From the NCBI GenBank assembly GCA_021234155.1, contig JAJEKV010000031.1, positions 7,826,748 through 7,890,747 on the forward strand: 64,000 bases of DNA, in the 5' to 3' direction. The translations under genes and the position numbers were made by a program. Source of the DNA: Isoetes taiwanensis (taxonomy: Eukaryota > Streptophyta > Lycopodiopsida > Isoetales > Isoetaceae). Shown in pieces: positions 7,361 through 64,000 of the stretch. A model generated the notes under the pieces. It was not told the DNA's origin. It saw nothing but the letters and a program-made list of their open reading frames with translations, and ran no database searches. Positions within the stretch are counted from its first letter, which is position 1. Each line of letters starts with the position of its first letter.

Positions 7361-7370
7361 CTACATATTG

Positions 7371-16387: not shown

Positions 16388-16926
16388 TGTTAGTTTTGAA
16401 ACAACTTGTTTTCAATCAATACAATGATGTGAAATTATCCCTTGACAATGAACTAGCCAAATGAAATATCAATGGTCCCTTGAACCTTTAATTTCAATGG
16501 TGCTAATATATTCAAATCATTATGCAATGAAGAAATACAACTGGGTTTTCGCGATCAAATTCTTCTGGTCTGCTCCGCTGCTCCTCCGATCTTCTTCACA
16601 CCATCTAATAATCATTGGGTCCTTTCTTTATTTGAATCACACAGATCCAGGCGGTTAGCAGTTGGTTTCGGGCTTCGATGCCGGATCGGCCGGAGATTTT
16701 CTTCAGAAAAACTTCTTCGATATATCCCACATTCATATCTGCATAAGTTGGCCTTTCGACCATTGAAATATAATTTCATATAACCTTAATGAAACAATAT
16801 ACCATTGTCCCATAAGGTTTATTGTTCAAGAGAAATAAGGCAACCTTCGACCTAATCTTTCATCAAGGATCTGCATATGATAAGCTGATAATCTAACATA
16901 TATGATAATCACTCTGAACATTAACA
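16388..16926 (-). repeat. Copia 3' LTR, complete (539 bp)
   Basis: The repeat begins TGTTAG and ends TTAACA, giving the perfect 5-base inverted ends TGTTA/TAACA. Its first 138 bases match 21202-21339 with one difference. The purine tract TAAAGGAGGAA of the minus strand lies directly inside it, fixing the border at 16926. Confidence 0.88.
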
Positions 16927-16937
16927 TTCCTCCTTTA
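16927..16937 (-). other. Copia polypurine tract
   Basis: The minus-strand sequence TAAAGGAGGAA abuts the inner border of the 3' LTR. This is the usual position and composition of the plus-strand priming site. Confidence 0.8.
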
Positions 16938-16999
16938 TCATATATGTTGATGATCAGAGAAGAACTTCCACCTACTGTTCAACTATTTAAACTATAATT

Positions 17000-19012: not shown

Positions 19013-19020
19013 CTTTTTCC

Positions 19021-21180: not shown

Positions 21181-21187
21181 TATTCCT

Positions 21188-21199
21188 GCTCTGATACCA
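21188..21199 (-). other. Copia primer binding site
   Basis: The minus strand reads TGGTATCAGAGC, the usual complement of the initiator methionine tRNA 3' end. It lies two bases inside the 5' LTR border. Confidence 0.88.
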
Positions 21200-21201
21200 A
21201 A

Positions 21202-21339
21202 TGTTAGTTTTGAAACAACTTGTTTTCAATCAATACAATGATGTGAAATTATCCCTTGACAATGAACTAGCCAAATGAAATATCAATGGTCCCTTGAACC
21301 TTTAATTTCAATGGTGCTAATATATTCAAACCATTATGC
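21202..21339 (-). repeat. Copia 5' LTR, truncated to 138 bp
   Basis: The sequence from TGTTAG to CATTATGC is identical to 16388-16525 except for one base. After 21339 it changes abruptly to LINE sequence, so about 400 bases of the LTR, including its promoter region, are gone. The element could not start normal transcription here. Confidence 0.88.
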
Positions 21340-41775: not shown

Positions 41776-43305
41776 AGAAGGGGTGTAAAATCGCTAGTGG
41801 GGTACAACTTTTGGCGAAGCGTTTAAGCACTTTAAGTGCTGAAACTCGCGGACGCCGGGCTCGGCCACTTCTCCCTCCTTTTCCCCTGGGCGCGAAAACT
41901 CAGATCAGTGTTTCAATGTTGACGATGGAGGCATGGAGCACGGATGATTTTCACACCATCAGAGGTCTGTGCAATTCGGGGGTGAAGCCCCACGAGGAAG
42001 AAGCTTGGTTGGAAAATAATGTCACGGATCGAGATTGGGATTCTGTTTGGACAAAGAAGTTGAACAAGGGAAAGATAAAATGGCACTGTGCAAAGGAGCA
42101 TCTTCAAGAGAAGTTGGAAACACTTTGCGAAAAATCTACAAGAATTGTCACAACAAAGAAGTAAGAAAGCAACCGCCCCTTGCTTTTGCGTTTGAAAATT
42201 GCATTAGATCAATACTTGCACCCGAGGAACACAAAGTAAATGGGCTGCATTTGCCGTGGCAATGTCAAAGATACCACAACAATAGACAAGTAAAAACAGA
42301 GGCGTATGTTGTAGCACATGTTAGGAAAATGAAATGAAGGCAAAGCCAAAGGTGGCAGCTGGATCAAATGAGGTCAGTGCATGTGATGAAAACATAAAAA
42401 CCTTAGAGAATGCAGTACAAGAGATTGGAAAATCAGTTTTACTTATCACAAAGAATCTGGAAGCAGTAGGAAGTGAGCTGAAAGGCAATGAGAAGGCCTC
42501 TGAATTACAGAAAATGATGTTGGAAGAGGCTGAAAAACGCTTTAAGACAAACCCACGATGATTTGGCTACAAAACAGGAGGAGTTCAAGCTTAATCCAAC
42601 ATGTGAGTTGGAGGCAGAAATTAAAGATTTGGAGCAGACTGTCCAGATGGAAACTTGGCACAGGAACAAGGTACAAAAAGCAATGAACCCTACATCTGTT
42701 AATGAGCAGGTCAAACGTAAACTCAAACTTGAGGAGGAGTTAAAAAGTTCTCGAAGAAGAACGAGAGACTTCTCGCATTTCTACATAAACAATTTGTGGA
42801 AGCTGAAAATGGATACTCAAGCAACATTTAGCATCTCTACTATTATACGAGATAAGTTGCTAGTGGAAGATCCATTTTATACATGTTCTAAGATGTGGTC
42901 CGAATTCACTAAAGCTTACAGTTAAGTTTAGCACTGAATTGCCAACATGAGTATCATATAGCTTGTTGTTCATTGTTGAGAGGAGGACAATGTATTCATG
43001 GTTGCCCTGGAAAGGTGCCAGAGGGTGTATTTGACGAGCTAGGTTTTGGCCATGTTGCGTGGTGCTTCAAATAGTACACCAAAAAGGATGTGTTAATCCG
43101 TCCCTCGCAATTGAGGTCTCACCGTTGAGGGTTCAAAGAAGGACAATGGTGCCATTTGAAGATGCACAACACCCAAAAGTCCTATAGGAGTACAATCAAT
43201 TGTGGATCGATTTGAATGCAAATGAGAACCACCACCACCACCCCAAGAAGTCCCCCAAGAAACTATAGAAGAAGTCAGAAAACAAAGACCGGTTGTAAAC
43301 ACAAA
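41776..43305. other. Coding-like but unrecognised plus-strand segments
   Basis: A chain of plus-strand frames covers 41910-42925. The first, starting MEAWSTDDFHTIRGL, ends KIKWHCAKEHLQEKL...TTKK. The next contains CIRSILAPEEHKVNGLHLPW. Two Lys/Glu-rich segments look like coiled coils (42334-42561 and 42563-42925, for example ELEAEIKDLEQTVQME). Codon content looks genuine, but I recognise no family. They may be remnants of a single unknown gene or transposon protein. Confidence 0.35.
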
Positions 43306-43329
43306 GACCAAACAACAAGAAAAAGGCCA

Positions 43330-43860
43330 TTTAGCGACGCCAATAGCGACTCTGCGCTGACGTCTGGCTGACGCCCGACGGCAACGCCGTGACGTCGCCT
43401 AGAGACGTCGTTAGACATCGCCGCGATCGCGACGTCGCCGCGATCGACGCATGGTCGGCGTTTAAGCAGACGTCAGCGTCTGTGACGCGTCGCAGACGTC
43501 GCCGAGCGTCGCGCAGACGTCGCATGGCACGTGACACGTGAAATATACACGTGGAATATACACGTGGAATATACACGTGGAACATCACCAAAATCCACGC
43601 GTCTTGAAAAAGCCGCGTATCGTCGCATCGCGACGTGACATCGTGGAAGACGCATTACATGGAAAATTCAAAATCCGGCGTGTAGAAAAGCCACGTGAAA
43701 AAAAAAAAGCCGATGGATACGTCGCATGCGACGTGAAGGGGAAAAAAAATATATATATATATATATTTATATAAAAAAGCCACGTGGCAAAAAAAAAAAG
43801 CCACGTGGATACGTCGCATGCGACGTGAAGGGGAAAAAAATAAAAAAAAAAAAAATAAAA
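43330..43860. repeat. CACTA subterminal palindrome block
   Basis: The block contains many GACGTC, GCGACGTCGC, CGCGATCG and CACGTG words. Three direct copies of ATACACGTGGA lie at about 43546-43580. Two copies of a block from ATACGTCGCATGCGACGTG to AAGGGGAAAA lie at about 43717-43748 and 43809-43840. Such clustered short inverted repeats are where CACTA transposases bind. Confidence 0.6.
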
Positions 43861-43875
43861 ATATATTTATATAAA

Positions 43876-44006
43876 AATATTTTTAAATAATCACAAAAGT
43901 GTTTTTATATTCATATTTTTAAATAGTCACAAAATTATTTTTATATTTATATTTTTAAATAATCACAAAAGTGAATTGTATTTATATTTTTAAATAATCA
44001 CAAAAG
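43876..44006. repeat. 36-bp tandem repeat, four units
   Basis: The words TAAATAATCACAAAAG or a close variant start at 43884, 43920, 43956 and 43991, giving a 35-36 base period in AT-rich sequence just downstream of the transposase gene stop. Confidence 0.85.
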
Positions 44007-44043
44007 ACTCGTTAAGAGGAGTATCCACCCTTTTAGCCTAGAG

Positions 44044-46176
44044 CTACTCTCTCTCAGATTCAGTGGAGTAGTCATCCGAGTACGTAGTTAGAGGACGCAC
44101 GGTACGGTTGCGATTGGATGGCTCTCCATCGACGTTTGCAGATCCCTCGCCGCGCCCGAGCCTTATGTCATGCTCTAGACCTTCATTCATATCCGCCACT
44201 GCTTCCTATAAAAACCAAAAGAATATGGCGTTAATGTAGTTCATAGAATTATAATAATTTTCTACAACGCACCCCCGCATTCCCGCGAATTGGGAGAGTT
44301 CCCTCGTCGTATAACTGTTGATACAGATAAACAGCTCCACGTTCCGTGGCTACTTGTACCTGCTGCTTGTTAGGGGCAAACCCGTATAGATGTTCCTATG
44401 ACAATATAACGAGTATTAGCTAGTGACATTTAAAGTTCTTATTAAAATTAATGTGAACTAATATAGCTCTTACGAATCTATGGAAAAACCCTTTTCGACC
44501 GCCGGAGCCCAAATGAGACGCCTTTCGATCACTTTTAGTTGCTTTGTCGGTCCGAGCTCTATGTTTGCTTTCTGGATCCTTTGCACGTTCGAATGCAATC
44601 TGATTGCAAGGCACACAACATTATCACAAGTTAAAGTGAACGAATGACAAAAAAAAATAAGAAATACCTTGATATCTTCCTTGTGGAGATTAAGTGGTTT
44701 AGGGACTTTTGACCAATCGCCTCCTTCTTTTTCGCAAGTCTGCTTCAGTTCCTTGACCACATGGTGCCTTTGACATAAATCGATAGATCAACGCCATATC
44801 AAAATAATAAAAACAAGACTATGACTAGGTCATGTACCTCCTTTTTCAGATAAGCTCGCCCATCATCGTGAGCTTCTTCCGCTTAAACGCCTTTGCTTTT
44901 TCTATCTCCTCGAAAAACTCTGTTTCATTTTATTTTTGACGCTCTCTATTTCAAGGCGTTGGTCATAAGCGCCGTGCCACTCCCCTATACCGCTGGGAGG
45001 CCATAAACGAGAGATATTATTTGTGACCGCGTCCCTCGGTGTAGTATAAAAGACACTTCCCTCATCATCCTTCTTAGGAAGAGCGTCCCCTCAAGCATAA
45101 ATGGTGGGTATATAAAAGCGTGTTTATGTCTCACCAATCAATATACATATCCCGTCCCCCCATTAAGAACCTTTTGAGCACTTTGCAATGTATTCTAAGT
45201 GAAGAGAATGAACAAAACAACAAATTTAGATGACAAAGTACTAATATTTAAGGTTGATATCTTAAATAATATGTTCACATAACTTACATCAAAAAATTAT
45301 TATTAATATGATAGTCGGGTATATTCGGGGCCAAATCACCCGCAGACTTACGTGTCTAAAACAAAGCGAAATGGACGCTCTTCTTCGCATGACACGTGGG
45401 CGCCGTCGGGATCCTTGCCTCTCCAAGTCGGAAATGCGACCATGTTCTTCGGATCCCGAACCCCGGATGATCGTCGCGATCTTGAAGGTTGTGAGTCTGT
45501 TGCTCCACTACTTCTTGACCTGGGAAGTAATGAGAGAATGAGCATCTTTAACATGCTGCAACCAAAGAAATGTTTGGTACGTAGTGGATATATATTTACC
45601 TGTTGAAATCTTCCTCCAAGTTCCTTGCATTAGAAAAATCTGTTCCCGTCTCTTGCCTAGAACGGGAGTCCATACTACGTCTAGCATTCTCAATATTCTC
45701 GCGAGAACGTGGAGGCCGATAATCAACACTATGTCGTTGGGGAATAGGAGCGGGAGGCTGCCTAACTGGCGTTGGTGTCAAAGAGGCAAAATATGCTGCA
45801 ATTTGGTCTCTCTCGGCGGGAGACATGTTTGCGAGGAAGGCGGGGAGCGGCGGAGGAGCTGCAGAAGCACAAATATCATGCAAAAAACAATTCATTTATT
45901 TATTATTTTTATAAAAAGCTATCTTAATACCCAAACCTTTGGGTGTAGTGATAGGTGGAGGTTGGCGGCTTGGAGGACCATCAGCACGATTGCCCCTACC
46001 TCGTGGAGTCCTCCTCCTATTTTCTCTAAACTCGTCCCTTTCCTCTACACAACAAATTAAAACTCCATGCATAAACTCACATACCTAATTAGAGGGTAAA
46101 GCGTATAATAAAAACTATATAAATACTTACCTTCGTCTTGCTCATTCTCCGTACGATTGCGATTACCTCTATTCAT
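44044..46176 (-). CDS. Ptta/En/Spm-type plant transposase-like protein, multi-exon
   Basis: Exons on the minus strand with GT-AG borders: 46176-46131 (ATG start, MNRGNRNRTENEQDE), 46044-45937, 45858-45600 (FLANMSPAERDQIAAYFASL), 45555-45352 (KNMVAFPTWRGKDPDG), 45194-45135 (IHCKVLKRFLMGGRDMYIDW), an unresolved middle part at 45090-44830, then 44767-44668 (CEKEGGDWSKVPKPLNLHKE), 44599-44474 (KATKSDRKASHLGSGGRKGF), 44395-44273 (TERGAVYLYQQLYDEGTL) and 44205-44044 ending STESERE and TAG. All junctions among the first five exons and among the last four keep the frame. The [KR]-rich stretch before SHLGSGGRKGFF matches the KxxR...HTxGSKSF signature of the Ptta/En/Spm transposase family. The middle exon (FYTTPRDAVTNNISRLW, EFFEEIEKAKAFKRKK) needs one more frame change. 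An N-terminal hydrophobic ORF at 46302-46460 may be an earlier exon. Function, probably DNA binding of transposon ends, is inferred. Confidence 0.6.
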
Positions 46177-46803
46177 CGCCGAGAAAAAGAGCACACCTAG
46201 ATCAAAAAGAAATTGTGAGAGAAACATTTGATAACCATGAATGATATTGGTTGCAATAATAGAATGATACTTACAAACCATAGAGATGAAAAATAGTATT
46301 TTTATGGTTCGAAATGTGCCACTAATGAGCCCCGTGCAGACTTACTCATAGCCTTGACCGCCTTGACCGGGGCGGAGGGGAGACGCGAATGCCATGAATA
46401 TTGCATCAGCGTAAAGAGGGCCACAATGAGGAAAACCGCTAAGAATTGAGCCTCCGCCATGACTATATATATTAATTTGAACATAACGAGAATTAGCGAG
46501 AGAAAAGCTTTGAACAAGTGTCTTTGAATAAATACCTAAATTTATATTCTTATCTTCTTATTTATATTAGAAAAGTATCTCGTATATATGTATGGGGTGC
46601 ATATCGAACTCTAGGTTGCCATATTATCGGGCCATGTATCATGTCATACAATCAACCCTAAATTATCCCACATGGCATTTTTAGTGCCACATCATGAAAC
46701 CCTACGCTATGCGTGGCACATCATCAAACCCTAGGTTGTGTCACGTCACGACTTCCTATTGCCACATCATAGTAAGTGCCATGTCATCAAACCCTAGCTT
46801 AGC

Positions 46804-46875
46804 GTGTGCCACATCATCAAACCCTAGATTGTGCCACATGGCATTTACAATCTAGGGTTTGATGATGTAGCACAC
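46804..46875. repeat. 29-bp arm inverted repeat with AAACCCTAG words
   Basis: The arms 46804-46832 and 46847-46875 are complementary with a single mismatch around a 14-base loop. The arms include ATCATCAAACCCTAGATTG. Neighbouring sequence (46660-46800) carries further direct copies of CATCAAACCCTAG and CACATCAT. It lies upstream of the transposase-like gene. Confidence 0.8.
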
Positions 46876-46999
46876 AAAACCTAGGGTTTGACGTCTATGC
46901 AGAAACACTTTATCTACAAGTTATGATTAATAATTTATTTACCATTAATAATAATTTTTTTTGATTAATAAATTACTTTTTTCATTAGTAATTTTGACT

Positions 47000-48603
47000 A
47001 AAAAACATTTATTGGTTGCAACAAGCCTCAAATAGGAAGACAAAATTATATTAATCACTTCTTGCAAGCATTTAACAAAGAGCTTAGCCATCTCAAGTGG
47101 ATCACCACACTTCATATGTCGCTCTCTCTCACAACTATATCGGAAGAAAGCCCCTGCTGCTTTTGAACACATCGACGACCTTGAGCAATAGATGGGCGAT
47201 CCATGTGCACTAGCTCTCTATCCATCATCATTTGGACCTTCATATGTTGGATGATGTCCAATGTGCTAGAGTATCGGTCGGTTGGGTTTATCTCAACACA
47301 CAACCCCATAAGCCGCATTGCCCGGACAAAACAAGGAGCATCTCGTAAATGTAGCCCAGGGGAATATATGTCGATATCTCATGCCCCATGATGCTTGGTC
47401 ATCCGATGATGATGTAAAAACTCTCTTCTCCCACCAAGGATATCGCACTGCTTCCATCTTGTAGTGTATAACGGCTCTTCAATTTGGGCATTCGCTCCTT
47501 GCAAAAAAAACGGAGGGGCCGTGTCCCAATCACCAATAGCCACCCACACATTTGTAAGGAGTCATCAAAATGGAGTTTGACCCTTTTGCAATTGAGCTTT
47601 GTGTGTGTCCAACCTGAGCGTGGATGGCATAGACTCCTTCCGCAAGAGCGAGAGCTATTTCGGGACGTACTTATACACGAGTCTCATTTTTTGGCTTTCC
47701 ACTCGCACTTATCTTCATATCAGCCCTTCTTGGAGCACTATGCATTGCATTTGACCATCTCCTATAAGAAGAGAATTGGCTCTCGAAGATGGTCAAGTAA
47801 TTACGCAAAGGTTCCTCCATTCATGAATGGCGGGACTACCATTGGTCCCCTCGTGGCTCATCTCCACAAAGACCTCGGGGGGCAAGTCCAAGGGTGTGGC
47901 CAATGCTGGTCTTGGGCTCTTGAAACGGATATACTTGTCGTACCAACAACCATGATGCAGCTCTATCTTGGCCTCTCCACACAATGCCGATAATAATAAT
48001 CATCTTGATTAAAGTCACGTGGTTCCCAAGATCCGGATTTGGTATATTTGGCGCCTTTGTTTACTACCAATGCACTTTTTAAACTCCAAATGTTCATCCA
48101 CAGGAATGCTGTCAATAAATGCAGCACATTTATCATGAGCATGTAATGATAATCTAGCCCCTGCACCAATAGAGCTCCCACCATGGATAAGACTATCTAA
48201 CTCCTTCACCTGCTCATCATTGAGACTGCTACTGGCCATCTTGTGATCTTTGCGTCGAACCTTTGCACTTCGCCACGAATTAGCCCATCGTCCCACGTAT
48301 GCCTCAGCATAGGGGCTCATAAGTGGCACTTTATACTTAAGTAGCATCCTCAATTCTGGCTCAGGATTGCAAACCCAAGACTTTAAGTTCTTTCTCATCA
48401 TATCTTCCAACTCAGACTCATGCTCTGGCCACCTCCCACATAATTCAGACCGACATTCTTTCTCAACTGATGCTACAAAACGGTTAATTCGATCATCAGT
48501 TTGCATATGTCGTTCCGGGTCGGTCTGTGCGCATATTTGATTGATGAGGATGCGCCTAATTTCACTAAGCATCTCTGTCCCATCGAGGCCATTTTTTATG
48601 CCT
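47000..48603 (-). pseudogene. Unrecognised coding-like region (possible transposon cargo)
   Basis: An exon-like frame starts after an acceptor (TTTGTAG) at 48603 and encodes about 195 residues. It includes EIRRILINQICAQTDPERHM, RWPEHESELEDMMRKNLKSW, PYAEAYVGRWANSWRSAKVR and SLHAHDKCAAFIDSIPVDEH, and ends at a stop near 48015. Further pieces follow in other frames: FNQDDYYYRHCVERPR, WYDKYIRFKSPRPALATPLD and, at 47112-47318, MRLMGLCVEINPTDRYSSTL. The last weakly resembles the end of a receptor-like kinase domain (CV-x-NP-x-DRP). I do not recognise the main part. It could be a captured host gene or a second transposon protein. Confidence 0.35.
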
Positions 48604-48704
48604 ACAAACAAAACAAAATAATGAATACAAAAGCCAAGCATGCACAAAGTAAATGCAACATAATACGATACAATATCAAACATGTATGCGGACCATATAA
48701 TCAT

Positions 48705-49230
48705 TACTTATAACACGCCCTATGGCGACTAATACCTTATCCGACCCCCAGCCCCAAAAGCAAGAAAAAAAAAAAGAAGAAGAAACAAGAAAAACTAAAT
48801 AGGTTAGATTAGGGTATTCGGACCCACGGTCAATTTACATTCAGATTACTAGTTAATTAGTTAGCGGATAGTCCCAAATTTTAGTTAACTTTTTAACCAA
48901 AAACACTACCTAAACTTATCTTCGCACCTTGTTCGGATTAGTTAGCAAAATTAACTAAAAATTAACTAAATTAGAAATTAGCACTATAGAGGTCACTTTA
49001 AGTTTAGTTAATTGTACATATAATTTTTATGCCTTTGGCTAACTTTAACTAGACATGTTGAAATAATTTAGTTAATTAGTTAAGTTATTTTTTTTACCAA
49101 CGCTTTTAGTGCGAATTAGTACTACATTAAGTTAGCCTAACCTATTTTTTTAACTAGCACGGGTGTGAAGGGAATCATCCGATTCTCGTTAACTTAACCT
49201 AGCCCTAGCTACCTCTAGCTAAAATCGACA
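48705..49230. other. AT-rich stretch inside the CACTA-like element
   Basis: Rich in TTAGTTAA and TAACTAAA words in both orientations (48850-49130). This could be a small nested inverted-repeat element, but ends were not defined. No coding sequence. Confidence 0.35.
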
Positions 49231-49625
49231 ATAAACGTGAACTAAGGCCCAACACCTGGTCCTCCCCACTTTCAAGCGGAGCCGACCATGTCCTTGCCGT
49301 AGCCACATCTACCTAAGAATGAGAAGAAAAGTGGACTTGGACCCGGACACCTAGTCCTCTCCACGCAAGGTGGAGCCGACCGTGACCTTGAACAAGCCAC
49401 TACAATTTTATTTTAAACCTAAAAATAACAAGTGGAACTGGAAGTGGACTTGAACCCGGTGCGTGGTCCTCTCCACTCTAGGTGGAGCCGGCCGCGCCTT
49501 GAACAAGCCACTCATTAACCTAGGAAACATTTATGATTGTAGTGAAAGTGGACTTGAACCCGGGTACATGGTCCTCCCCACTCTAGGTGGAGCCGACCCG
49601 TGCCTTTGAACAAGCCACTCCATCA
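49231..49625. repeat. Tandem repeat of about 105-115 bp, four units
   Basis: GTGGACTTG...CCCGG...GGTCCTC-CCACTC...GGTGGAGCCGACC...TTGAACAAGCCACT repeats with starts at 49331, 49444 and 49548. A more diverged first unit begins near 49231. Confidence 0.82.
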
Positions 49626-49744
49626 ATTTTTTTAACCTACTTAAAACTATAAAAATAAAATGCAAGTGCGATCAACTACTTACCAAAATAAGGACGCGTG
49701 TACAAGATCCTGTCGGGTCCAAATCGTAATAGAAAGCTGCAATA

Positions 49745-50575
49745 GAAGTAACAAAGCATTAGAGGAATAAGAACAAAGAAGAAAAAAAGATCAAGAAGAA
49801 AGAAAGGAAAAAAAGGGGGTAGAAAACAAGAGATAGAAATAAAACAAGAGAAAGAAATAAGAGAATAGAAGGGAAGAAATAAGGATAGAATAGAGAAGAA
49901 ATAAGAGAAGAAACAAGAAAGAATGAAGAAAAATAAGAGGAAATAAGAGAAGGGAAGGGAATAGAATGGAAGGAAGAAATAAGGGAAGGGAAAGAAAAGG
50001 ATCGAATGGAAAGTGAGGAAGAAATGTGAAGAATAAGAAACAAATGAAGAATGAAGAAATGAAATTAAAAAGAATGAAGAATAAGAAATGAAAAAAATGA
50101 AGAATAAGGAAGGGAAGAGAAGAAAGAAATGAGGGAAGGGAGGGGAAAGAATTAGGAATGAGAAAGCATGAGAAAGAATGGAAATGAGAAACAAATGAGA
50201 AAGCATGAGAAAGAAATGAGAAAGAAATGAGAAAGCATGAGAAAGAAATGAGAAAGCAAGAAATGAGAAAGAATGAGGAAGAATGAGAAAGAGAGGAATA
50301 AAGAATGAGAAAGCATGAGGAAGAAAGAAATGAGAAAGAATGAGGAAGAAAGAATGAGAAAGAAATGAGGAAAGAAGAAATATGGGAAGAAAGAATGAGG
50401 AAAGAATGAAGCATGGAAGAAGGAGGAAGAAATGAAGCATGAGGAAGAATGAGGAAGAAATGAAGCATGAGAAAGAAAGAAGGAGGAAGAATGAACGAGG
50501 CATGGAAGAATGGGAAGAAAAAAAATCAAGAACAAAGAAGAAGAGGAAGGAAAGGAAACCAAAAAAAGAGGAAGG
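49745..50575. repeat. 830-bp purine-rich tract
   Basis: Almost all bases are A or G, in loose repeats of GAAAGAATGAG, GAGAAAGCATGAG and GGAAGAAATAAG. The long Phe/Ser/Leu-rich minus-strand frames across it (for example 49676-50590) are by-products of composition and should not be called genes. Confidence 0.88.
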
Positions 50576-50879
50576 TTGGGCATGCACCATTCAATCCAAA
50601 AAACCTATTCAATCTAAAAAACATGATATACTAACCTTAGAATAGTTGCTTGCGTGTAGATCGAGGTACTAGCCATCCATGGATCGCCCAAGAACCTCGA
50701 AGAAGTAGGGCAAAAAGAAGTTCCGAAAAGCCGGCCGCGGTTTCAAGGAAATATTACGAGTGTCGCATCCGGCGTCCACGCCGCATGCGACGTTATTTCA
50801 AATCTGCGTCCGCACGCGGCCCCTTAAACGTATTTTGTTATAGCGACGTTATTGTTTTTGCATCTTTTTTTTTTTTAAT

Positions 50880-51380
50880 GTGAAGCTCATTAAAGTTTGT
50901 CCCTAGGCTTATTTGAACAAAGAGGTCGGATCCTTGAACGGAGGATTCAACGGCCGAATATATAGGGAACTGAAGCTCGAGGGTGTTCATTAGCATACAG
51001 TCCCCAGCGGTGCCTTCTACAAAGCAGCCCCTCGAAAACGTTTTTGGGGTCCGCCTCTTACGGGGGCGGGACTCTCCCCTCTTGAGGTGGCCATTCAAAG
51101 TCGCCTTGTTTGACTTGGGGAAGGGTGCCGACCATGCTTGCCCAACAACGGCCTGCGGACCGTTCTAACCCCAACGCTTTAGGTCTGGACCTTTATCCTC
51201 AAAATTTTGGAAATTTTCATGTATCTTTACGGTGATGACCATAGAAGCCGGTGACCAAAACCATAATTTAATTCCATGCCATGCATTAACTACGAATTTA
51301 TAAACCATAAATGCAATAAAATGCATAACTAAAAGAGTGTGCATCGAAAAAAGGCGAGTCTTTGACCAGGGGGGCAACAA
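50880..51380 (+). repeat. Degenerate edge unit of the 1.12-kb satellite
   Basis: The sequence follows the B-type unit in order: GAACGGAGGATTCAACGG, GGGTGTTCATTAGC, GACTCTCCCCTCTTG, TTTGACTTGGGGAAGGGTGC, then a diverged GGTCTGGACCTTTATCC and CATGCATTAACTACGAATTT. Compare GACCTAGACCTTCTCC and AATGCATTAATTGCGAATTT in the array. It is far more diverged than any internal unit, as expected at a satellite border. Confidence 0.7.
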
Positions 51381-51468
51381 GGCGGTGCGGACACATTAAA
51401 AAAAATTTCACTTGGAAACTATGAAGCAATCTTTCATCAAGGTACAATTGTTTCTGAGAAACAAAACC

Positions 51469-53848
51469 AGTTCATTACAAGTTAGTTATGCCATCCATGT
51501 CAAATAGCTTTAGGGAGCAGAAAAACCAAAACAAAAACCCTTCTAGAATCTGGCAAGTCACAGGGTTTACGTCCAATGCAATCTTAGACCAAGTATAACG
51601 TCCAGCGAGCCAAGGTCAACCCCAAGTACAACGATCCCACAAACTCCATTCCTTTGACCTTAGCTAACCCTTTGACCTAGACCTTCTCCGAAAATTTCGA
51701 AAATTGGGCTGTGTGATGGAGATGGATTAGGAATCCAGCTGGCAAAAAATCAGAATTTATTTTCAGTTACAATGCATTAATTGCGAATTTATGAATGTCT
51801 TGCCACCAAAAAGCGCCCCCGACTTCTACTTGCCACATCGGAGGAGGACGGACCCCAAACTCCGCTCCGTCCGTTCCCCTTGCTCCCGTATTCTCCGGCT
51901 CTCGCTTCTCCGGCCAGGTCCCAGTGCAACAGACCAAGTCTCGCCCCCAAAAACGCAAACCCTTCTAGAACACGGCAACCCACGGGGTTTACGTTTTGGA
52001 GGCCCTCTCCTTGTCGATTAGGGGGGACCTTGGGCGCCGTGACTTGACGTGGAGTGAGGGTGTTGATGCTAGAGCACGGACCCTAAAATCCCAAGAAGCT
52101 TTGCCCCGAATTTCCCTCCCCAAGGCCACGGGGGCCGGACGGGCGACCTCCCTCTCGAATCGCGATTTGACTCTGCGAATGGATTCGAACGCCGACGTTG
52201 CCCTAGGGACCAAGTTACGTGGCGGAAGACCAAAACTCGGCCCCCAAAACAAAACCCTTCTAGAATCACGGCAAGTCCGGGGTTTACGTTTGGGAGGCCC
52301 TCTCCTTGTCGATTTGGTCGGGACCTTGCAACGGTATCTTGACATGGAGTGGGGTGTTGACGCCTTGAGGGGACCCTAAACTCCCCCTGGAAGTTGCTTG
52401 CCCCGAATTGAGTTCATTACAAGTTAATTATGCCATCCATGTCAAATAGCTTTAGGGAGCAACCGCTGAACAAGGGCATTCTCTCTATCCATATGCCTTG
52501 ATATTTTGAAACACAACCATCATCACAAGCAACCAAATCTAACCCCCAACCCTAGTCTTTTGCTTTTCTCAGAATCATTTATCTTCATTCTAGTAGTTAT
52601 GATGCTTTTCCTCGTAATCATTTATCTTCATTCTAACAGTTATGATGCTTATATTCTCAATGCAATCTTAGACCAAGTATAACGTCCCAATGAGCCAAGG
52701 TCAACCCCAAGTACAACGATCCCACAAACTCCATTCCTTTGACCTTAGCTAACCCTTTGACCTAGACCTTCTCCGGTAAAATTTGAAAATTGGGCTGTGT
52801 CTTTGAGATGGGTTAGGAATCCAAGCTGGCAAAAAATCAGGATTTATTTTCATTTACAATGCATTAATTGCGAATTTATGAATGTCTTGCCATCGCCAAA
52901 AGCCCCGATTTCTACTTGCCACATCGGAGGAGGACAGCCCAAACTTTCGCTCCGTCGGTTCCCCTTGCTCGTATTCTCGGCTGCGGCTTCTCGCCAGTCC
53001 CAAGTGCAGCAGACCAAGTCTCGCCCCCAAAACGCAAACCTTTCTAGAACCCGGCAACCCACGGGGGTTTCGTTTTGGAGGCCCTCTCCTGTCGGTTTCG
53101 GCGGGACCTTTAGCGTGACTTGACGTGGAGTGGGGGTGTTGACGCTTGTGAGCACGGACCCTAAAATCCCCCTAAGCTGCTTGCCCTGATTTCCTCTCCC
53201 CAGGCCACAGGGACGGGCCAGAGGCCTCCCCTCTCCTCCAAATCGCGATTTGACTACGCCAATGGACTTCGGAACGTCGACGTTGCCACAGGGACCAAGT
53301 TCCGTGGGCAGAAGACCAAAACTCGGCCCCCAAAAAAAAAAAAAACCTTCTAGAACTGCAAGTCCACGGGGTTTACGATGTGGAGGCCCTCTCCTTGTCG
53401 ATTTGGTCGGGACCTTTTCACCTTATCTTGACATGGAGTGGGGGTGTTGACGCCTTAGCCGGGGACCCTAAACTCCCTCTAAGTTGCTTGCCCCAATTCA
53501 GTTCATTACAAGTTAATTATGCCATCCATGTCAAATAGCTTTAGGGAGCAAAATTGCTGAACAAGGGCATTCTCTCTATCCATATGCCTTGATCCTTCAA
53601 AACACAACCATCATCACAAGCAACCAAATCTAACCCCCAACCCGCACTAGTCTTTTTGCTTTTCCAATCATTTATCTTCATTCTAGTAGTTATGATGCTT
53701 TTCCTCAAATCATTTATCTTCATTCTAATAGTTATGATGCTTATATTCTCAATGCAATCTTAGACCAAGTATAACGCCCAAATGAGCCAAGGTCAACCCC
53801 AAGTTGCGATCCCACAAACTCCATTCCTTTGACCTTAGCTAACCCTTT
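51469..53848 (+). repeat. Satellite, A-type units
   Basis: Units contain the block starting AGTTCATTACAAG (51469, 52411 and 53500) through CAATCTTAGACCAAGTATAA and CTCCATTCCTTTGACC into the common head GACCTAGACC (51674, 52759 and 53849; periods 1085 and 1090). Each A unit carries two diverged copies of an internal block of about 300 bases (CCAAAACGCAAACCCTTCTA...GGAGGCCCTCTCCTTGTCG). The first unit lacks the 150-base TATGATGCTT segment. No conserved reading frame. Confidence 0.88.
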
Positions 53849-54999
53849 GACCTAGACCTTCTCCGAAAATTTCGAAAATTGGGCTGTGTCTTTGGAGATG
53901 GGTTAGGAATCCAGCTGGCAAAAAATCAGAATTTATTTTAGCACAATGCATTAATTGCGGTTTATGAATGTCTTGCCATTGCAAAAGCCCCCGACTTCTA
54001 CTTGCCACATCGGAGGAGGACAGGCCCAAACTCCACTCCGTCAGTTCCCCTTGCTCAGTATTCTCGGCTGCAGCTTCGGCCAGGTCCCAAGTGCAGCGGA
54101 GCCTGTCTCGGCCCCAAAAACGCAAACCCTTCTAGAACACGGCAACCCACGGGGTTTACGTTTTGGAGGCCCTCTCCTTGTCGGTTCAGGACCTTGACCT
54201 GCGTGTGACTTGGCGTGGAGTGGGGTGTTGGCGCTTGAGCACGGACCCCTAAAATCCCGGAAGCCGCTTGCCCTGCGAATTTCCTCTCCCCAAGGCCCGG
54301 GGGCCGGACGGGCGACCTCCCTCTCCCAATCGCTGATTTGACTTCTCGCCAATGGACTCAAGCGCCGACATTTGCCACAGGAGACCAAGTTCCGCGGTGG
54401 CCAAAGACCACCCGGCCTCCAAGAAGCCAAAGTAGCTCACTTCCATCACACTCGTGAGTCAATTGGCCTAGGATGTGGATCTCGCGGGGATACCGGGTCG
54501 TGGAGGGCGTGAGTGTTTCTTTCTTTTGCAAAACCGACCTTGTAACTTGCTCCCTAGGGTAATTTCGCCATTCCGGACGATTTGGCGGGTCGGTTTGCCA
54601 TTCCCGAGGCTCCCGTGCCGGAGCGACAAGACATCTGCGGTTTCTACAAGGCCGACCTCCTCGGGCGCCCCCGCCAATTTAACAAGTTCTCCCTTCTCTC
54701 CGATCCAAATCTTTTGGGCCTTCCCCAAGAGGGGCCCCCCTCAATCGGAGGATCCAACGGTCGGATAGGGGAACCGGGCTCCGGGAGGGTGGTCATTAGC
54801 GTCCAGCGGCCCCTTCAGCGGCCTAGGGAAGAGCTGCCTGGGGAACTTTTTTGGATCCCAGCCTCTTGGGGTCCTGACTCTCCCCTCTTGTGAGGGATCC
54901 CCTGCAAGGTCCTGGCCTCGTTTGACTTGGGGAAGGGTGCCAGCTCGCCAAAGGTTGCCACAACAAGCGGCTGCCCGGCCGTTCTAATGCTAACCCTTT
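53849..54999 (+). repeat. Satellite, A/B hybrid unit (1151 bp)
   Basis: The unit starts downstream of an A-type block and has the common head. From about 54430 it continues into the B-type tail (TAGCTCACTTCCATCACACT, CAATTGGCCTAGGATGTGG, TGTAACTTGCTCCCTAGGG, TTTGACTTGGGGAAGGGTGC). It marks the switch between the two unit types. Confidence 0.85.
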
Positions 55000-57900
55000 G
55001 ACCTAGACCTTCTCCGAAAATTTCGAAAATTGGGCTGTGTGCTGGAAATGGATTAGGATTCCAGCTGGCAAAAAATCAGAATTTATTTTCGTACAATGCA
55101 TTAATTGCGAATTTATGAATGTCTTGCCACTGCAAAAGCGCCCCCCGACTTCTACTTGCCACATCGGGAGGAGGACAGGCCCAAACTCCGCTCCGTCAGT
55201 TCCCCTTGCTCCGTATTCTCGGCTGCAGCTTCTCGGCCAGGTCCCAAGTGCAACAGACCAAGTCTCGGCCCCCAAAACGCAAACCCTTCTAGAACCTGGC
55301 AACCCACAGGGTTTACGTTTTGGAGGCCCTCTCCTTGTCAGATTCGGCCGGGACCTTGCGTTGTGACTTGACGTGGAGTGGGGGTGTTGACGCCAGAGCA
55401 CGGACCCTAAAATCCCCCCGGAAGCTGCTTGCCCCGAATTTCCTCTCCCCAAGGCCCTGGGGACGGACGGGCGACCTCCCCTCTCCGGAATCGCGATTTG
55501 ACTCTGCCAATGGACTCAGAACGTCGACGTTGCCCTGGGGACCAAGTTCCGTGGCCAGAAGACCACCCGACCTCCAAGAAGCGCCAAAGTAGCTCACTTC
55601 CATCACACTCGTAGTCAATTGGCCTAGGATGTGGATGCGGGATACTGTCGTGGAGGGCGTGAGTGTTTCTTTCTTTTGCAAAACCGACCTTGTAACTTGC
55701 TCCCTAGGGTAATTTACGCCATTCCTCGACGATTTGGCAGGTCGATTTGCCATTTTTGAGCCTCCCGGTGCGAACGACAAGACAACTGCGGTTTCTACAA
55801 GGCCGACCTCGGGGGCCCCCGGTTTGACAAGTTCTCCCGACCGATCTGGAATCTTTTGGGCCTTCCAAGAGGGGCCCCTGAACGGAGGATCCAACGGTCG
55901 GATAGGGAACCTCCCGGAGGGTGGTCATTAGCGTGCAGCCCCCCGGGGGAGCGCTGCCAGGAAGGGCTGCCTCGGGAACTTTTTTGGATCCCGCCTCTTG
56001 GGGTCCGGACTCTCCCCTCTTGTGAGGGATCCCTGCAAGGTCCTGGCCTCGTTTGACTTGGGGAAGGGTGCCTGGCTTCGGTTTATGCAACGGGCTGCCC
56101 CGACCGTTCTAATGCTAACCCTTTGACCTAGACCTTCTCCGAAAATTTCGAAAATTGGGCTGTGTGCTGGAAATGGATTAGGATTCCAGCTGGCAAAAAA
56201 TCAGAATTTATTTTCGTACAATGCATTAATTGCGAATTTATGAATGTCTTGCCACTGCAAAAGCGCCCCCCGACTTCTACTTGCCACATCGGGAGGAGGA
56301 CAGGCCCAAACTCCGCTCCGTCCGGTTCCCCTTGCTCCGGTATTCTCGGGCTGCGGCTTCGCCGGGTCCCAAGTGCAACAGACCAAGTCTCGCCCCCAAA
56401 GCAAAACCCTTCTAGAACACGGCAACCCACGGGGTTTACGTTTTTGGAGGCCCTCTCCTTGTCGGTTCGGGCGGGACCTTGCTGCGTGACTTGACGTGGA
56501 GTGGGGTGTTGGCGCCAGAGCACGGACCCTAAAATCCCCGGAAGCGCTTGCCCTGAATTTCCTCTCCCCAAGGCCACGGGGGCCGGACGAGGCGACCTCC
56601 CCTCTCTCGAATCGCGATTTGACTCTCGCCAATGGACTCGAACGTCGGCGTTGCCACTGGGGACCAAGTTCCGTGGGCCAAGACCACCCGACCTCCAAGA
56701 AGCCAAAGTAGCTCACTTCCATCACACTCGTAGTCAATTGGCCTAGGATGTGGATCGCGGGATATCTTGTCGTGGAGGGCGTGAGTGTTTCTTTTCTTTT
56801 ACAAAACCGACCTTGTAACTTGCTCCCTAGGGTAATTTCGCCATTCGGACGATTTGGCGGGTCGATTTGCCATTCGGAGCCTCCCGGTGCCCGAGCGACA
56901 AGACAACTGCGGTTTCTACAAGGCCGACCTCGGGGCCCATGGTTTGACAAGTTCTCCTCGGGCCGATCTGGAATCTTTTGGGCCTTCCGAAGAGGGGCCT
57001 GAGCGGAGGATCCAGCGGTGGGATAGGGGAGCAGGGCTCGGGGGGTGGTCATTAAGCGTCACAGCCCCGGGGGCGCTGCCGAGGAAGGGGCTGCCTCGGG
57101 AACTTTTGGATCCCCGCCTCTTGGGGTCCGGACTCTCCCCTCTTGTGAGGGATCCCCCAAGGTCCTGGCCTCGTTTGACTTGGGGAAGGGTGCGGCTCGG
57201 TTGCCACCGGGCTGCCCCGAACCGTTCTAATGCTAACCCTTTGACCTAGACCTTCTCCGAAAATTTCAAAATTGGGCTGTGTCTTTGGAGATGGATTAGG
57301 AATCCAGGTGGCAAAAAATCAGAATTTATTTTAGTACAATGCATTAATTGCGAATTTATGAATGTCTTGCCACCTTAAAGCCCCCGACTTCTACTTGCCA
57401 CATCGGGAGGAGGACAGGCCCAAACTCCGCTCCGTCCCGGTTCCCCTTGCTCCGTATTCACCGAAATTTTGCGGCTTCTCGCCCAGTCCCAAGTGCACCT
57501 TGAGACCAAGTCTCGCCCCCAAAGCGCAAAACCCTTCTAGAACACGGCAACCCACGGGGTTTACGTTTTGGAGGCCCTCTCCTTGTCGGTTGGTGGGACC
57601 TTGCGCGTGACTTGGCGTGGAGTGGGGGTGTTGGCGCCCGAGCACGGACCCTAAAATCCCGGAAGCTGCTTGCCCCGAATTTCCTCTCCCCAGGCCCCGG
57701 GGCCGGGCGGGCGACCTCTCCCTCTCGGAATCGCGATTTGACTCGCCAATGGACTCGAGCGTCGACGTTGCCACGGGGACCAAGTTCCGTGGCGAGAAGA
57801 CCACCCGACCTCCAAGAAGCGCCAAAGTAGCTCACTTCCATCACACTCGTAGTCAATTGGCCTAGGATGTGGATCACGGGATCTTGTCGTGGAGGGCGTG

Positions 57901-60900
57901 AGTGTTTCTTTCTTTTGCAAAACCGACCTTGTAACTTGCTCCCTAGGGTAATTTAAGCCATTCCGGACGATTTGGCGGGTCGATTTGCCATTCCCGAACC
58001 TCCCGATGTGCGAGCGACAAGACAATGCGGTTTCTACAAGGCCGACCTCGGGGCGCCCAGCGGTTTGACAAGTTCTCGGACCGATCTGGAATCTTTTGGG
58101 CCTTCGAAGAGGGGCCCTGAGCGGAGGATCAACGGTCGGGATATAGGGGAACCGGGCTCGGGAGGGTGGTCATTAAGCGTCACGCCCCCCGGGCTGCTGC
58201 CGGGGAAGAGGCTGCCTCGGGAACTTTTTGGATCCCGCCTCTTGGGGTCCCGGACTCTCCCCTCTTGTGAGGGATCCCCTGCAAGGTCCTGCCTCGTTTG
58301 ACTTGGGGAAGGGTGCCAGCTTCGGTTGCCACTACAGCGGGCTGCCCCCACCGTTCTAATCTAACCCTTTGACCTAGACCTTCTCGAAAAATTTGAAAAA
58401 TTGGGCTGTGTGCTGGAAATGGATTAGGAATCCAGGTGGCAAAAATCAGAATTTATTTTTCGTACAATGCATTAATTGCGAATTTATGAATGTCTTGCCC
58501 TTTGCAAAAGCCCCCCAGACTTCTACTTGCCACATCGGGAGGAGGACAGGCCCAAACTCCGCTCCGTCAGTTCCCCTTGCTCCGTATTCTCGGCTGCAGC
58601 TTCTCGGCCAGGTCCCAAGTGCAACAGACCAAGTCTCGGCCCCCAAAACGAAAACCCTTCTAGAATCTGGCAAGTCACAGGGTTTACGTTTCGGAGGCCC
58701 TCTCCTTGTCGGTCAGGCGGGACCTTTATGCGTGACTTGGCGTGGAGTGGGGGTGTTGGCCTTGAGCCTGGACCCTAAAATCCCGGGAAGCTGCTTGCCC
58801 GAATTTCCTCTCCCAAGGCCACGGGGGCCGGACGGGCGACCTCCCCTCTCGGAATGGCGATTTGGCTCTGCCAATGGACTCGAAGCGTCGACGTTGCCAC
58901 GGGGACCAAGTTCCGTGGCGAAGACCACCCGACCTCAAGAAGCGCCAAAGTAGCTCACTTCCATCACACTTTCGTAGTCAATTGGCCTAGGATGTGGATG
59001 CGGGGATCTTGTCGTGGAGGCGTGAGTGTTTCTTTCTTTTACAAAACCGACCTTGTAACTTGCTCCCTAGGGTAATTTAGCCATTCCTGACGATTTGGCG
59101 AGTCGATTTGCCATTCCGAACCTCCCGGTGCCCGAGCGACAAGACAACTGCCCGGTTTCTACAAGGCCGACCTCGGGGCGCCCAGCGGTTTTGACAAGTT
59201 CTCGGGACCCGATCACGGAATCTTTTGGGCCTTCGAAGAGGGGCCCTGAGCGGAGGATCAACGGTCGGATAGGGGAACCGGGGCTCGGGAGGGTGGTCGT
59301 CATTAAGCGTCACGACCCCCGGGGCCTGCCGGAAGGGCTGCCTCGGGAACTTTTGGATCCCGCCTCTTGGGGTCCGGACTCTCCCCTCTTGTGAGGGATC
59401 CCTGCAAGGTCCTGGCCTCGTTTGACTTGGGGAAGGGTGCCAGGCTCGGTTGCCCCCTGCAGCGGGCTGCCCCGGCCGTTCTAATCTTAACCCTTTGACC
59501 TAGACCTTCTCCAAAAATTTGAAAAATTGGGCTGTGTCTTTGGAAATGGATTAGGATTCCAGGTGGCAAAAAATCAGAATTTATTTTCGTACAATGCATT
59601 AATTGCGAATTTATGAATGTCTTGCCACTGCAAAAGCGCCCCCCGACTTCTACTTGCCACATCGGGAGGAGGACAGGCCCAAACTCCGCTCCGTCGGTTC
59701 CCCTTGCTCCCGTATTCTCCGGCTGCGGCTTCTCGGCCCGGTCCCAAGTGCAGCAGACCAAGTCTCGGCCCCAAAAGCGCCAAACCCTTCTAGAACACGG
59801 CAACCCACGGGGTTTCACGTTTTGGAGGCCCTCTCCTTGTCGGTCCGGGCGGGACCTTGCGGCGTGGAGTGACTTGGCGTGGAGTGGGGGTGTTGGCCTT
59901 GAGCCGCGGACCCTAAAATCCCGGTGCTGCTTGCCCCGAATTTCCTCTCCCCAAGGCCACGGGGCCGGGCGGGCGACCTCCCTCTCGGAATGGCGATTTG
60001 GCTCGCCAATGGACTCGAAACGTCGACATTGCCACAGGGACCAAGTTCCGTGGCGAAGACCACCCGACCTCCAAGAAGCGCCAAAGTAGCTCACTTCCAT
60101 CACACTCGTAGTCAATTGGCCTAGGATGTGGATGCGGGATCTTGTCGTGGAGGCGTGAGTGTTTCTTTCTTTTGCAAAACCGACCTTGTAACTTGCTCCC
60201 TAGGGTAATTTAAGCCATTCCGGACGATTTGGCGGGGTCGATTTGCCATTCGGAGCCTCCCGGTGCCCGAACGACAAGACAATGCGGTTTCTACAAAGCC
60301 GACCTCGGGGCCCCAGCGGTTTGACAAGTTCTCCCGGACGATCTGGAATCTTTTGGGCCTTCGAAGAGGGGCCCCTGAGCGGAGGATCAGCGGTGGGATA
60401 GAGGAACCGGGCTCAGGAGGGGTGGTCATTAAGCGTCTGCGGCCCCGGGGCCGCCCGGGGAAGAGCTGCCTCGGGAACTTTTGGATCCGCCTCTTGGGGT
60501 CCGGACTCTCCCCTCTTGTGAGGATCCCCGCAAGGTCCTGGCCTCGTTTGACTTGGGGAAGGGTGCCAGCTCGGTTGCCACCCAGCGGGCTGCCCGACCG
60601 TTCTAATCTTAACCCTTTGACCTAGACCTTCTCCGAAAATTTGAAAAAATTGGGCTGTGTCTTTGGAGATGGATTAGGAATCAGGTGGCAAAAAATCAGA
60701 ATTTATTTTAGTACAATGCATTAATTGCGAATTTATGAATGTCTTGCCCTTTGCCAAAAGCCCCCCCGACTTCTACTTGCCACATCGGAGGAGGACAGGC
60801 CCAAACTCCGCTCCGTCGGTTCCCCTTGCTCCGTATTCTTCGGCTGCGGCTTCTCGGCCGAGGTCCCAAGTGCAACAGACCAAGTCTCGGCCCCCAAAGC

Positions 60901-63900
60901 GCAAACCCTTCTAGAACACGGCAGCCCACAAGGTTTACGTTTTGGAGGCCCTCTCCTTGTCGGTTGAGGCGGGACCTTGCTTGGCGTGACTTGGCGTGGA
61001 GTGGGGGTGTTGGCCTTGAAGCACGGACCCTAAAATCCCCGGAAGCTGCTTGCCCCGTTTCCTCTCCCCAAGGCCACGGGGGCCGGGCGGGCGACCTCCC
61101 TCTCGGAATCGCGATTTGGCTCTGCCAATGGACTCGAGCGTCGGCGTTGCCACAGGGACCAAGTTCCGTGGCGAAGACCACCCGACCTCAAGAAGCGCCA
61201 AAGTAGCTCACTTCCATCACACTTTCGTGAGTCAATTGGCCTAGGATGTGGATCACGGGATCTTGTCGTGGAGGCGTGAGTGTTTCTTTCTTTTGCAAAA
61301 CCGACCTTGTAACTTGCTCCCTAGGGTAATTTAGCCATTCGGACGATTTGGCGGTCGATTTGCCATTCGAGCCTCCCGGTGCCCGAGCGACAAGACAACT
61401 GCGGTTTCTACAAGGCCGACCTCCGGGGCCCAGCGGTTTGACAAGTTCTCCCGGACCGATCTGGAATCTTTTGGGCCTTCCCAGAAGAGGGGCCCTGAGC
61501 GGAGGATCAACGGTCGGATAGGGGAACGGGGCTCGGGGAGGGTGGTCATTAGCGTCTGCGGCCCGGGAGGCGCTGCCCGGGAAGGGCTGCCTCGGGAACT
61601 TTTGGATCCCGCCTCTTGGGGTCGGACTCTCCCCTCTTGTGAGGGATCCCTGCAAGGTCCTGGCCTCGTTTGACTTGGGGAAGGGTGCCAGCTCGGTTGC
61701 CCTGCAACGGGCTGCCCCGCCCGTTCTAATCTTAACCCTTTGACCTAGACCTTCTCAGAAAATTTGAAAATTGGGCTGTGTGCTGGAGATGGATTAGGAA
61801 TCCAGGTGGCAAAAATCAGAATTTATTTTTAGTACAATGCATTAATTGCGAATTTATGAATGTCTTGCCAGCGCAAAAGCCCCCGACTTCTACTTGCCAC
61901 ATCGGGGAGGAGGACAGGCCCAAACTCCGCTCCGTCAGTTCCCCTTGCTCCGTATTCTCGGCTGCAGCTTCTCGGCCAGGTCCCAAGTGCAACAGACCAA
62001 GTCTCGGCCCCAAAACGCAAACCCTTCTAGAACCTGGCAACCCACGGGGTTTCGTTTTGGAGGCCCTCTCCTTGTCGGTCGGCGGGACCTTTGCGTGACT
62101 TGGCGTGGAGTGGGGGTGTTGGCCTTGAACCACGGACCCTAAAATCCCCCGGAAGCTGCTTGCCCCGAATTTCCTCTCCCCAAGGCCACAGGGGCCGGAC
62201 GGGGCGACCTCCCTCTCTCGGAATCGCGATTTGGCTCGCCAATGGACTCGAGCGTCGGCGTTGCCACAGGGACCAAGTTCGTGGCGAGGAAGACCACCCG
62301 ACCTCAAGAAGCGCCAAAGTAGCTCACTTCCATCACACTTCGTAGTCAATTGGCCTAGGATGTGGATCGCGGGGATCTTGTCGTGGAGGGCGTGAGTGTT
62401 TCTTTCTTTTGCAAAACCGACCTTGTAACTTGCTCCCTAGGGTAATTTAAGCCATTCGGACGATTTGGCGGTCGATTTGCCATTCAGGAGCCTCCCGGTG
62501 CCCGAGCGACAAGACAACTGCGGTTTCTACAAGGCCGACCTCGGGGCGCCCGTGGTTTGACAAGTTCTCGGGACCGATCACGGAATCTTTTGGGCCTTCG
62601 AAGAGGGGCCCTGAACGGAGGATCAACGGTCCGGATAGGGGAACCGGGCTCCGGGAGGGTGGTCATTAGCGTCACGGCCCCGGGGGCTGCCGGGGAAGGA
62701 GCTGCCTGGGAACTTTTTGGATCCCGCCTCTTGGGGTCAGGACTCTCCCCTCTTGTGAGGATCCCCGCAAGGTCCTGGCCTCGTTTGACTTGGGGAAGGT
62801 GCCAGCTCGGTTGCCACCTGCAGCGGGCTGCCCGACCGTTCTAATGCTAACCCTTTGACCTAGACCTTCTCCGAAAATTTCGAAAAATTGGGCTGTGTGT
62901 GTCTTTGGAAATGGATTAGGATTCCGGTGGCAAAAATCAGAATTTATTTTAGTACAATGCATTAATTGCGAATTTATGAATGTCTTGCCAATGCAAAAGC
63001 CCCCCGACTTCTACTTGCCACATCGGGGAGGAGGACAGGCCCAAACTCCGCTCCGTCGGTTCCCCTTGCTCCGTATTCACCATTGCGGCTTCTCGGCCGG
63101 AGTCCCAAGTGCAGCAGACCAAGTCTCGGCCCCAAAGCGCCAAACCCTTCTAGAACACGGCAACCCACGGGGTTTACGTTTTGGAGGCCCTCTCCTTGTC
63201 GGTCGGTAGGGACCTTGCGCAGTGACTTGGCGTGGAGTGGGGGTGTTGGCCTTGAACCGCGGACCCTAAAATCCCGGGCTGCTTGCCCGAATTTCCTCTC
63301 CCAAGGCCACGGGGGCCGGACGGGCGACCTCCCCTCTCGGGAATCGCGATTTGACTCTGCCAATGGACTCGAGCGTCGACGTTGCCACAGGGGACCAAGT
63401 TCCGTGTGGCCAGAAGACCACCCGACCTCCAAAGCGCCAAAGTAGCTCACTTCCATCACACTCGTAGTCAATTGGCCTAGGATGTGGATCGCGGGATCTT
63501 GTCGTGGAGGCGTGAGTGTTTCTTTCTTTTGCAAAACCCGACCTTGTAACTTGCTCCCTAGGGTAATTTAGCCATTCGGACGATTTGGCGGTCGATTTGC
63601 CATTCGGAACCTCCCGGTGCCCGAGCGACAAGACAACTGCCCGGTTTCTACAAGGCCCGACCTCGGGGCCCCAGCGGTTTGACAAGTTCTCGGACCCGAT
63701 CTGGAATCTTTTGGGCCTTCGAAGAGGGGCCCCTGAGCGGAGGATCAGCGGTTGGGATAGGGGAACGGGCTCAGGGAGGGTGGTCATTAAGCGTCTGACC
63801 CCGGGAGGCTTGGCTGCCAGGAAGGGCTGCCTCGGGAACTTTTGGATCCAGCCTCTTGGGGTCAGGACTCTCCCCTCTTGTGAGGGATCCCCCGCAAGGT

Positions 63901-64000
63901 CCTGGCCTCGTTTGACTTGGGGAAGGGTGCGGCTTCGGTTGCCACAGCGGGCTGCCCGGCCGTTCTAATATCTAACCCTTTGACCTAGACCTTCTCCAGA
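55000..64000 (+). repeat. Satellite, B-type units, running past the window end
   Basis: Eight complete units start (at GACCTAGAC) at 55000, 56125, 57243, 58371, 59497, 60619, 61742 and 62857, with the next start at 63982. Lengths are 1115-1128. The head is shared with A units; the tail (TTGCAAAACCGACCTTGTAA, ACAAGGCCGACCTCGGGG, CTTTTGGGCCTTCGAAGAGG) is specific. The sequence is clearly GC-richer than the rest of the window. Differences are substitutions and many 1-3 base indels that shift every long reading frame between copies, so no protein is conserved. Confidence 0.93.

Follow-up and report, generated by a model that had tools for sequence, protein, structure and literature searches.

A satellite array of 1.12 kb units, probably carried inside a CACTA/En-Spm-type transposon, in the genome assembly of Isoetes taiwanensis

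The DNA analysed here, referred to as the window, is a stretch of 64,000 nucleotides (positions 7,826,748–7,890,747 of contig C1036, which is 17,402,236 bases long) in an assembly of 1,658,258,908 bases and 1,110 contigs that was searched for related sequences. The right part of the window is occupied by a tandem array whose units share the head GACCTAGAC. By exact pattern count this head occurs 12 times, always on the plus strand, from 51674 to 63982; in shuffled windows it occurred 0.29 times on average, and none of 100 shuffles reached 12. Successive heads are 1085, 1090, 1151, 1125, 1118, 1128, 1126, 1122, 1123, 1115 and 1125 bases apart. The first two units, of type A, match the later B units over roughly their first 560 bases, but their second half is distinct and AT-rich. 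Self-BLAST of the window gave parallel diagonals spaced about 1.12 kb apart, as far as an offset of 9 kb, with identities of 85.7–90.3% in the B part. The array extends 7.3 kb beyond the window to L001:7273 (contig position C1036:7,898,020) and measures 19,700 bases from window position 51574, with 18 exact heads and 17 complete intervals. Its GC content is 0.564, compared with 0.412 and 0.427 in the element DNA to its left and right. With 17 complete and similar units laid head to tail, it has the form of a satellite; it is absent from the Tandem Repeats Finder output because the longest period searched was 500.

These results bear out the initial annotation, made from the letters of the window, in its description of a satellite with kilobase units that changes from an A to a B type, is GC-rich in AT-rich surroundings and leaves the window. 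A self-comparison of the window, in line with the dot-plot it had proposed as a check, produced the expected diagonals, and its contrast between the kilobase unit and the common short plant satellites also holds. The start it gave, 51469, does lie at the array edge, but this position belongs to a fragment of an A-type second half at a diverged edge. The features of the array and of the surrounding element within the window are as follows.

43311..64000, minus strand: part of the transposon lying in the window, placed by its termini and by a match to the C952 copy from 43507 onwards
43311..43339, plus strand: left terminal inverted repeat (TIR), with first base A instead of C (in other copies, CACAACAAGAAAAGGGTCATTTAGCGACG)
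43311..43830, no strand: subterminal CGTCGC / GCGACG repeats, with 12 motifs within 500 bases of the element's left end
48018..48707, minus strand: 230-aa open frame of the left arm
49758..50573, no strand: purine-rich GAA/GAATGA tract, common to the left arms of other copies
50928..51304, plus strand: diverged unit remnant at the edge, about 69–76% identical to units
51469..51673, plus strand: incomplete second half of an A-type unit where the array begins to diverge at its edge, from the sequence, with BLAST support from 51574 onwards
51674–52758 and 52759–53848, plus strand: two A-type units, from self-BLAST, sequence and spacings
53849..64000, plus strand: B-type units, nine of them complete in the window (53849–63981), the array continuing to C1036:7,898,020
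55605..55629, plus strand: one occurrence of ACACTCGTAGTCAATTGGCCTAGGA, a 25-base stretch on which the majority sequences of six unit groups agree

The remnant at 50928..51304 is also present in L011, L050, L057 and L060, and such array-edge remnants are the most diverged copies of the unit. On contig C985 (19,889,064–19,893,317), five A-type markers lie about 1 kb apart, a spacing that would fit arrays composed mainly of A units.

Several further features were observed elsewhere in the window. An apparently young Copia-type retrotransposon occupies 16388–21339 on the minus strand (RVT_2 match), with direct repeats of 138 bases and 99.3% identity at 16388–16525 and 21202–21339, which are very short for LTRs. 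A remnant of a non-LTR retrotransposon with a zf-RVT domain lies at 34510–35328. The region 40770–41790 is strongly repetitive, and its minus strand reads as SPPPPSDPSPPPPSHGNP-like repeats, which we take to resemble extensin or another proline-rich protein. Two duplications, at 6499–7369 and 821–1800, have offsets of about 424–432 and 528–532 bases, respectively.

Three other identities for the array were considered and rejected. An array of RNA genes (rRNA, tRNA or snRNA) was not supported, with no Rfam match up to an E value of 1 in 48000–64000 and no tRNA in the window. A coding array was not supported either: single units contain long minus-strand frames, but indels of 1–5 bases vary between units. 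As for an LTR retrotransposon as carrier, retroelement Pfam matches were obtained only in window frames outside the element, in scans of 19 frames (9 + 10, with one frame in both) that were a subset of those listed.

The array is very probably internal cargo of a DNA transposon of the CACTA/En-Spm type with CACAA ends. The element spans 38,859 bases, from window position 43311 to contig position C1036:7,908,916, and the array makes up about half of this 38.9 kb. Its termini are inverted, CACAACAAGA...TTTAGCGACG; the right terminus reads CACAACAAGAGAATGGACTTTAGCGACG in reverse complement, and the left, at window 43311, is of the same type with its first base changed. The TIRs are inverted 29-base ends beginning CACAACAAGA, in which CAC is kept and CACAA replaces CACTA; the ends of CACTA/En-Spm elements vary after CAC. 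The 29-mer has 637 exact matches in the genome (319 + 318) and its reversed control none, and both TIRs of the window's copy differ from this pattern. Homology of the flanks to other copies stops at the TIRs on both sides: the left flank is 92.6% identical to the C952 copy over 7.5 kb, and the right flank aligns with the C1034 copy over 8.5 kb at 92.9% identity, additional matching pieces extending as far as the element end. The motifs CGTCGC and GCGACG occur 35 times in the 38,859 bases, in both orientations, and cluster subterminally, 12 copies falling within the first 500 bases and 10 within the final 360.

A Transposase_21 domain (PF02992, tnp2) was matched in the window's copy with an E value of 1.8e-17 (L019:528-860, corresponding to C1036:7,901,275-7,901,607) and in the C1034 copy with an E value of 9.3e-13. 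Both matches are above the curated cut-off, and tnp2 is present as fragments only. Because these fragments sit between the array and the right end in minus-strand frames, the right end was taken as the 5' end of the element, which places the array 3' of the domain and means that the window contains the 3' half of the element. The 230-aa frame of the left arm, a candidate for the second gene, gave no Pfam match over the cut-off. No target duplication was found around the window's copy (CCA versus AGT), and the C1034 copy has lost its left end. A search of the genome for the tnp2 family, in which 150 of 2,311 candidates were scored, gave at least 167 matches; the genome thus contains further tnp2 elements. 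The observed/expected ratio of CpG is 0.81 in the array, 0.95 and 1.02 in the arms and 0.44 in the window left of the element, values that would fit recent arrival or little methylation and do not amount to a dating.

Complete copies were selected by both TIRs being exact and a size of 5–23 kb, a selection that smaller array-less forms would escape. An exact 3-bp target duplication was found at 8 of 12 distinct TIR-paired copies (C104, C116, C136, C150, C197, and C907 at 37.57, 43.34 and 43.51 Mb). The flanks of the remaining four (C778, C503, C908 at 13.66 Mb and C907 at 23.4 Mb) are not identical, and two of these match in two of the three bases. Eight of the 12 were compared in full: C104, C197, C907:23.4, C907:37.57, C116, C136, C150 and C908. 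The array was present in all eight, with about 2 to 10 units: about 2 in C104, 3 in C150, 7 in C136, 4 each in C116, C197, C908 and C907:37.57, and two arrays of about 6 and 3.5 units in C907:23.4. In seven of the eight the first array piece begins at unit position 817, the exception being C197. Their units are about 69–77% identical to the window B unit (80–82% in C197), and about 8.6 kb of C197 and 4 kb of C908 were without match in the BLAST comparison. The C907:23.4 copy (C907:23,408,033-23,424,641; L046-L047) is TIR-bounded and contains left-arm sequence plus array twice in tandem; it looks like an internal dimer.

The tnp2 (right) arm gave no BLAST match in the eight complete copies beyond its last few hundred bases, and among the copies examined none combined intact ends, a target duplication and tnp2. 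The arm together with its terminus was found in the window's copy and in C1034; C79 showed the distal portion, up to and including the terminus. The array is found in copies that have the tnp2 arm as well as in shorter, complete copies that lack it.

Exact markers were counted across the genome, giving 3,581 occurrences of the head, 2,294 of a B-type 26-mer and 267 of an A-type 34-mer, and 0 for each control. Multiplied by 1.12 kb, the head count corresponds to about 4 Mb, or 0.24% of the assembly, a lower bound for units like these; the marker counts are themselves lower bounds that cover exact patterns only, and the DNA search of the genome scored just 3 of 4,803 candidates. Among the first 100 places listed for each marker, the matches form short arrays on many contigs and in both orientations. 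Element flank was identified on at least one side of 11 of the 14 arrays inspected (window, C1034, C952, C484, C79, C14, C31, C35, C50, C63, C80, C90, C96 and C1), a non-random sample in which C1034, C952 and C484 are the best DNA matches and C31, C35, C50, C63, C80, C90, C96 and C1 were taken from the first clusters among the matches listed. The right flank of C31 consists of only 165 bases, at which the contig ends. At C14, C50 and C96 no element flank was detected within the 1–3 kb of non-array DNA compared. In the C50 array (L054/L055), which has no transposon flank in the DNA compared, the two ends lie within about 30 bases of one unit position, the kind of pattern that insertion of an integral number of units, from a circle for instance, might leave. 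Of the TIRs on C1–C89 (n = 10 among the matches listed), eight lie no more than 30 kb from a listed head. In each of these eight, strand and end type relative to the nearest head agree with expectation from the window's element; the TIRs on C5 and C80 have no nearby head among the matches listed.

Divergence between units was examined in 28 units with exact heads 1000–1250 bases apart, with C50 and both C907 elements contributing none. B units of the window array (n = 15) differ by a mean of 8.4% substitutions (105 pairs). They differ by 8.9–9.3% from the units of C79, C35, C484 and the left part of C1034, and by 10.0% from those of C1; one of the 28, C1034_01, is an A unit and raises the means in which it is involved. 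In the small subfamily, pairs from the same array (n = 43) differ by 11.4% and pairs from different arrays (n = 257) by 11.9%, and the nearest unit lies in the same array for 5 of 25 units, with 3.6 expected and 29% of shuffles as high. This test omits the gapped C908 units and the C197 units and counts the two arrays of C907:23.4 separately. There was thus no sign of homogenisation within the small-subfamily arrays as a whole; the second array of C907:23.4 is uniform (5.9%), and private errors of the Nanopore assembly could hide some likeness within arrays.

The substitution frequency at CpG is 2–3 times that of C or G positions in neither a CG nor a CHG context. Deviations of G and C peak at CpG, where C>G (52) exceeds C>T (35), and A also deviates often; given this excess and the frequent A deviations, neither deamination nor base-calling error alone is shown. 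Many small indels separate the units, and a stretch at about 595–720 appears conserved in the 15 B units of the window array. When diverged groups are compared, conservation is confined to a 25-base run and a few shorter, partly AT-rich ones. Over all 32 units, ACACTCGTAGTCAATTGGCCTAGGA contains two unbroken runs of 9 and 15 columns, compared with 32% invariant columns overall. Substitution rates clearly differ along the unit, and conservation of ACACTCGTAGTCAATTGGCCTAGGA is offered as a lead only.

We propose that the array began in an ancestral element, where a 1.12 kb segment lying 3' of the transposase was turned into a tandem repeat, that unit number would then have changed through unequal exchange or slippage between fixed edges, and that transposition would have carried the arrays to new sites in the genome. 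A units may have arisen when a B head was joined to array-edge sequence. Against unequal exchange, which predicts likeness within an array, stands the near-chance placement of nearest neighbours (5 of 25 against 3.6 expected). By default the array is read as tolerated cargo. It is unlikely, though worth stating, that the unit is a working cis part, multiplied into a platform that may have ACACTCGTAGTCAATTGGCCTAGGA at its core and that would aid mobilisation or escape from silencing, the array being kept after loss of the transposase arm; if so, selection on transposition would maintain a satellite.

An independent satellite may instead have existed first and been captured by the transposon, perhaps repeatedly. 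The three of 14 arrays without element flank, the C985 markers with their hint of A-only arrays, and a Chenopodium case interpreted as capture (PMC8978399) are consistent with this order of events. It is nevertheless improbable, since the left edge of the array lies at one unit position in seven of the eight complete copies and the left arm and the unit occur together in diverged subfamilies, which speaks for single inheritance. Less probable still is multiplication or joining of copies by the assembler. The assembly is Nanopore-based, short-read polished and gap-filled (PMC8566536), many small indels separate the units, and unit numbers in it could be wrong; however, the same junctions of array and flank are seen at several independent loci, and substitutions of 5–13% separate the units, which mere duplication by an assembler would not yield. 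That the array is a chromosome-landmark satellite with transposons merely nearby is scarcely credible: long GC-rich units in an array might suggest a knob, centromere or subtelomere, the settings raised by the initial annotation, but the arrays appear to be not long and confined to a few landmarks but short and dispersed over many contigs among the matches listed, and here transposon arms bound the array, with transposon flank at 11 of 14. Cargo of a CACTA/En-Spm-type element thus remains the preferred reading, and a kilobase tandem array need not mark a chromosome landmark.

A small open-access literature search agreed with the initial annotation in finding no described family that matches the unit. 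In that search, the satellite-DNA literature on Isoetes treated only centromere drive, no Isoetes transposon papers appeared by title among the matches listed, and the word CACTA is absent from the main texts of two Isoetes genome papers (PMC8566536, PMC10541799). The closest system described is the Jozin-type CACTA-like element of Chenopodium quinoa, with 32.5 copies of a 171 bp satellite near its 3' end (PMC8978399). Both are CACTA elements with Transposase_21, almost complete ends and a long internal array near the 3' end, several elements carry the array, and the Jozin satellite is dispersed by FISH (PMC8978399). In Jozin the unit is 171 bp, the array 5.55 kb and the element 16.5 kb, and four elements are interpreted as having captured the array (PMC8978399); here the corresponding sizes are 1.12 kb, 19.7 kb and 38.9 kb, and the array is in all eight complete copies read. 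The Chenopodium satellite CficCl-61-40 likewise has a CACTA element as its source, but its 40-bp unit derives from a piece of the tnp2 coding domain (PMC7320549), whereas the present unit is set apart by its position beside the recognised domain. Atenspm/ENSAT1 of Arabidopsis is an En/Spm-like transposon linked with satellite arrays (PMC9659126, PMC7320549), listed with '5' UTR' (PMC9659126) and compared here with the Isoetes element by description only. Tgmt*, a soybean CACTA element of 20.5 kb, is similarly large, with a tnp2 gene and subterminal repeats (PMC2613891); it is about half as long as the Isoetes element, and the passages covered describe no internal array.

The varying unit number and fixed left edge make this family a natural series for the study of array growth and of any benefit of arrays to transposons, and it offers a clear case in which transposition explains the spread of a satellite, in what is most likely a lycophyte. 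A satellite array within a CACTA element is already known from Chenopodium; new here are the lack of any sign of greater similarity between units of one element than between those of different elements, the 1.12 kb unit, the retention of the array in every complete copy read and the probable lycophyte host.
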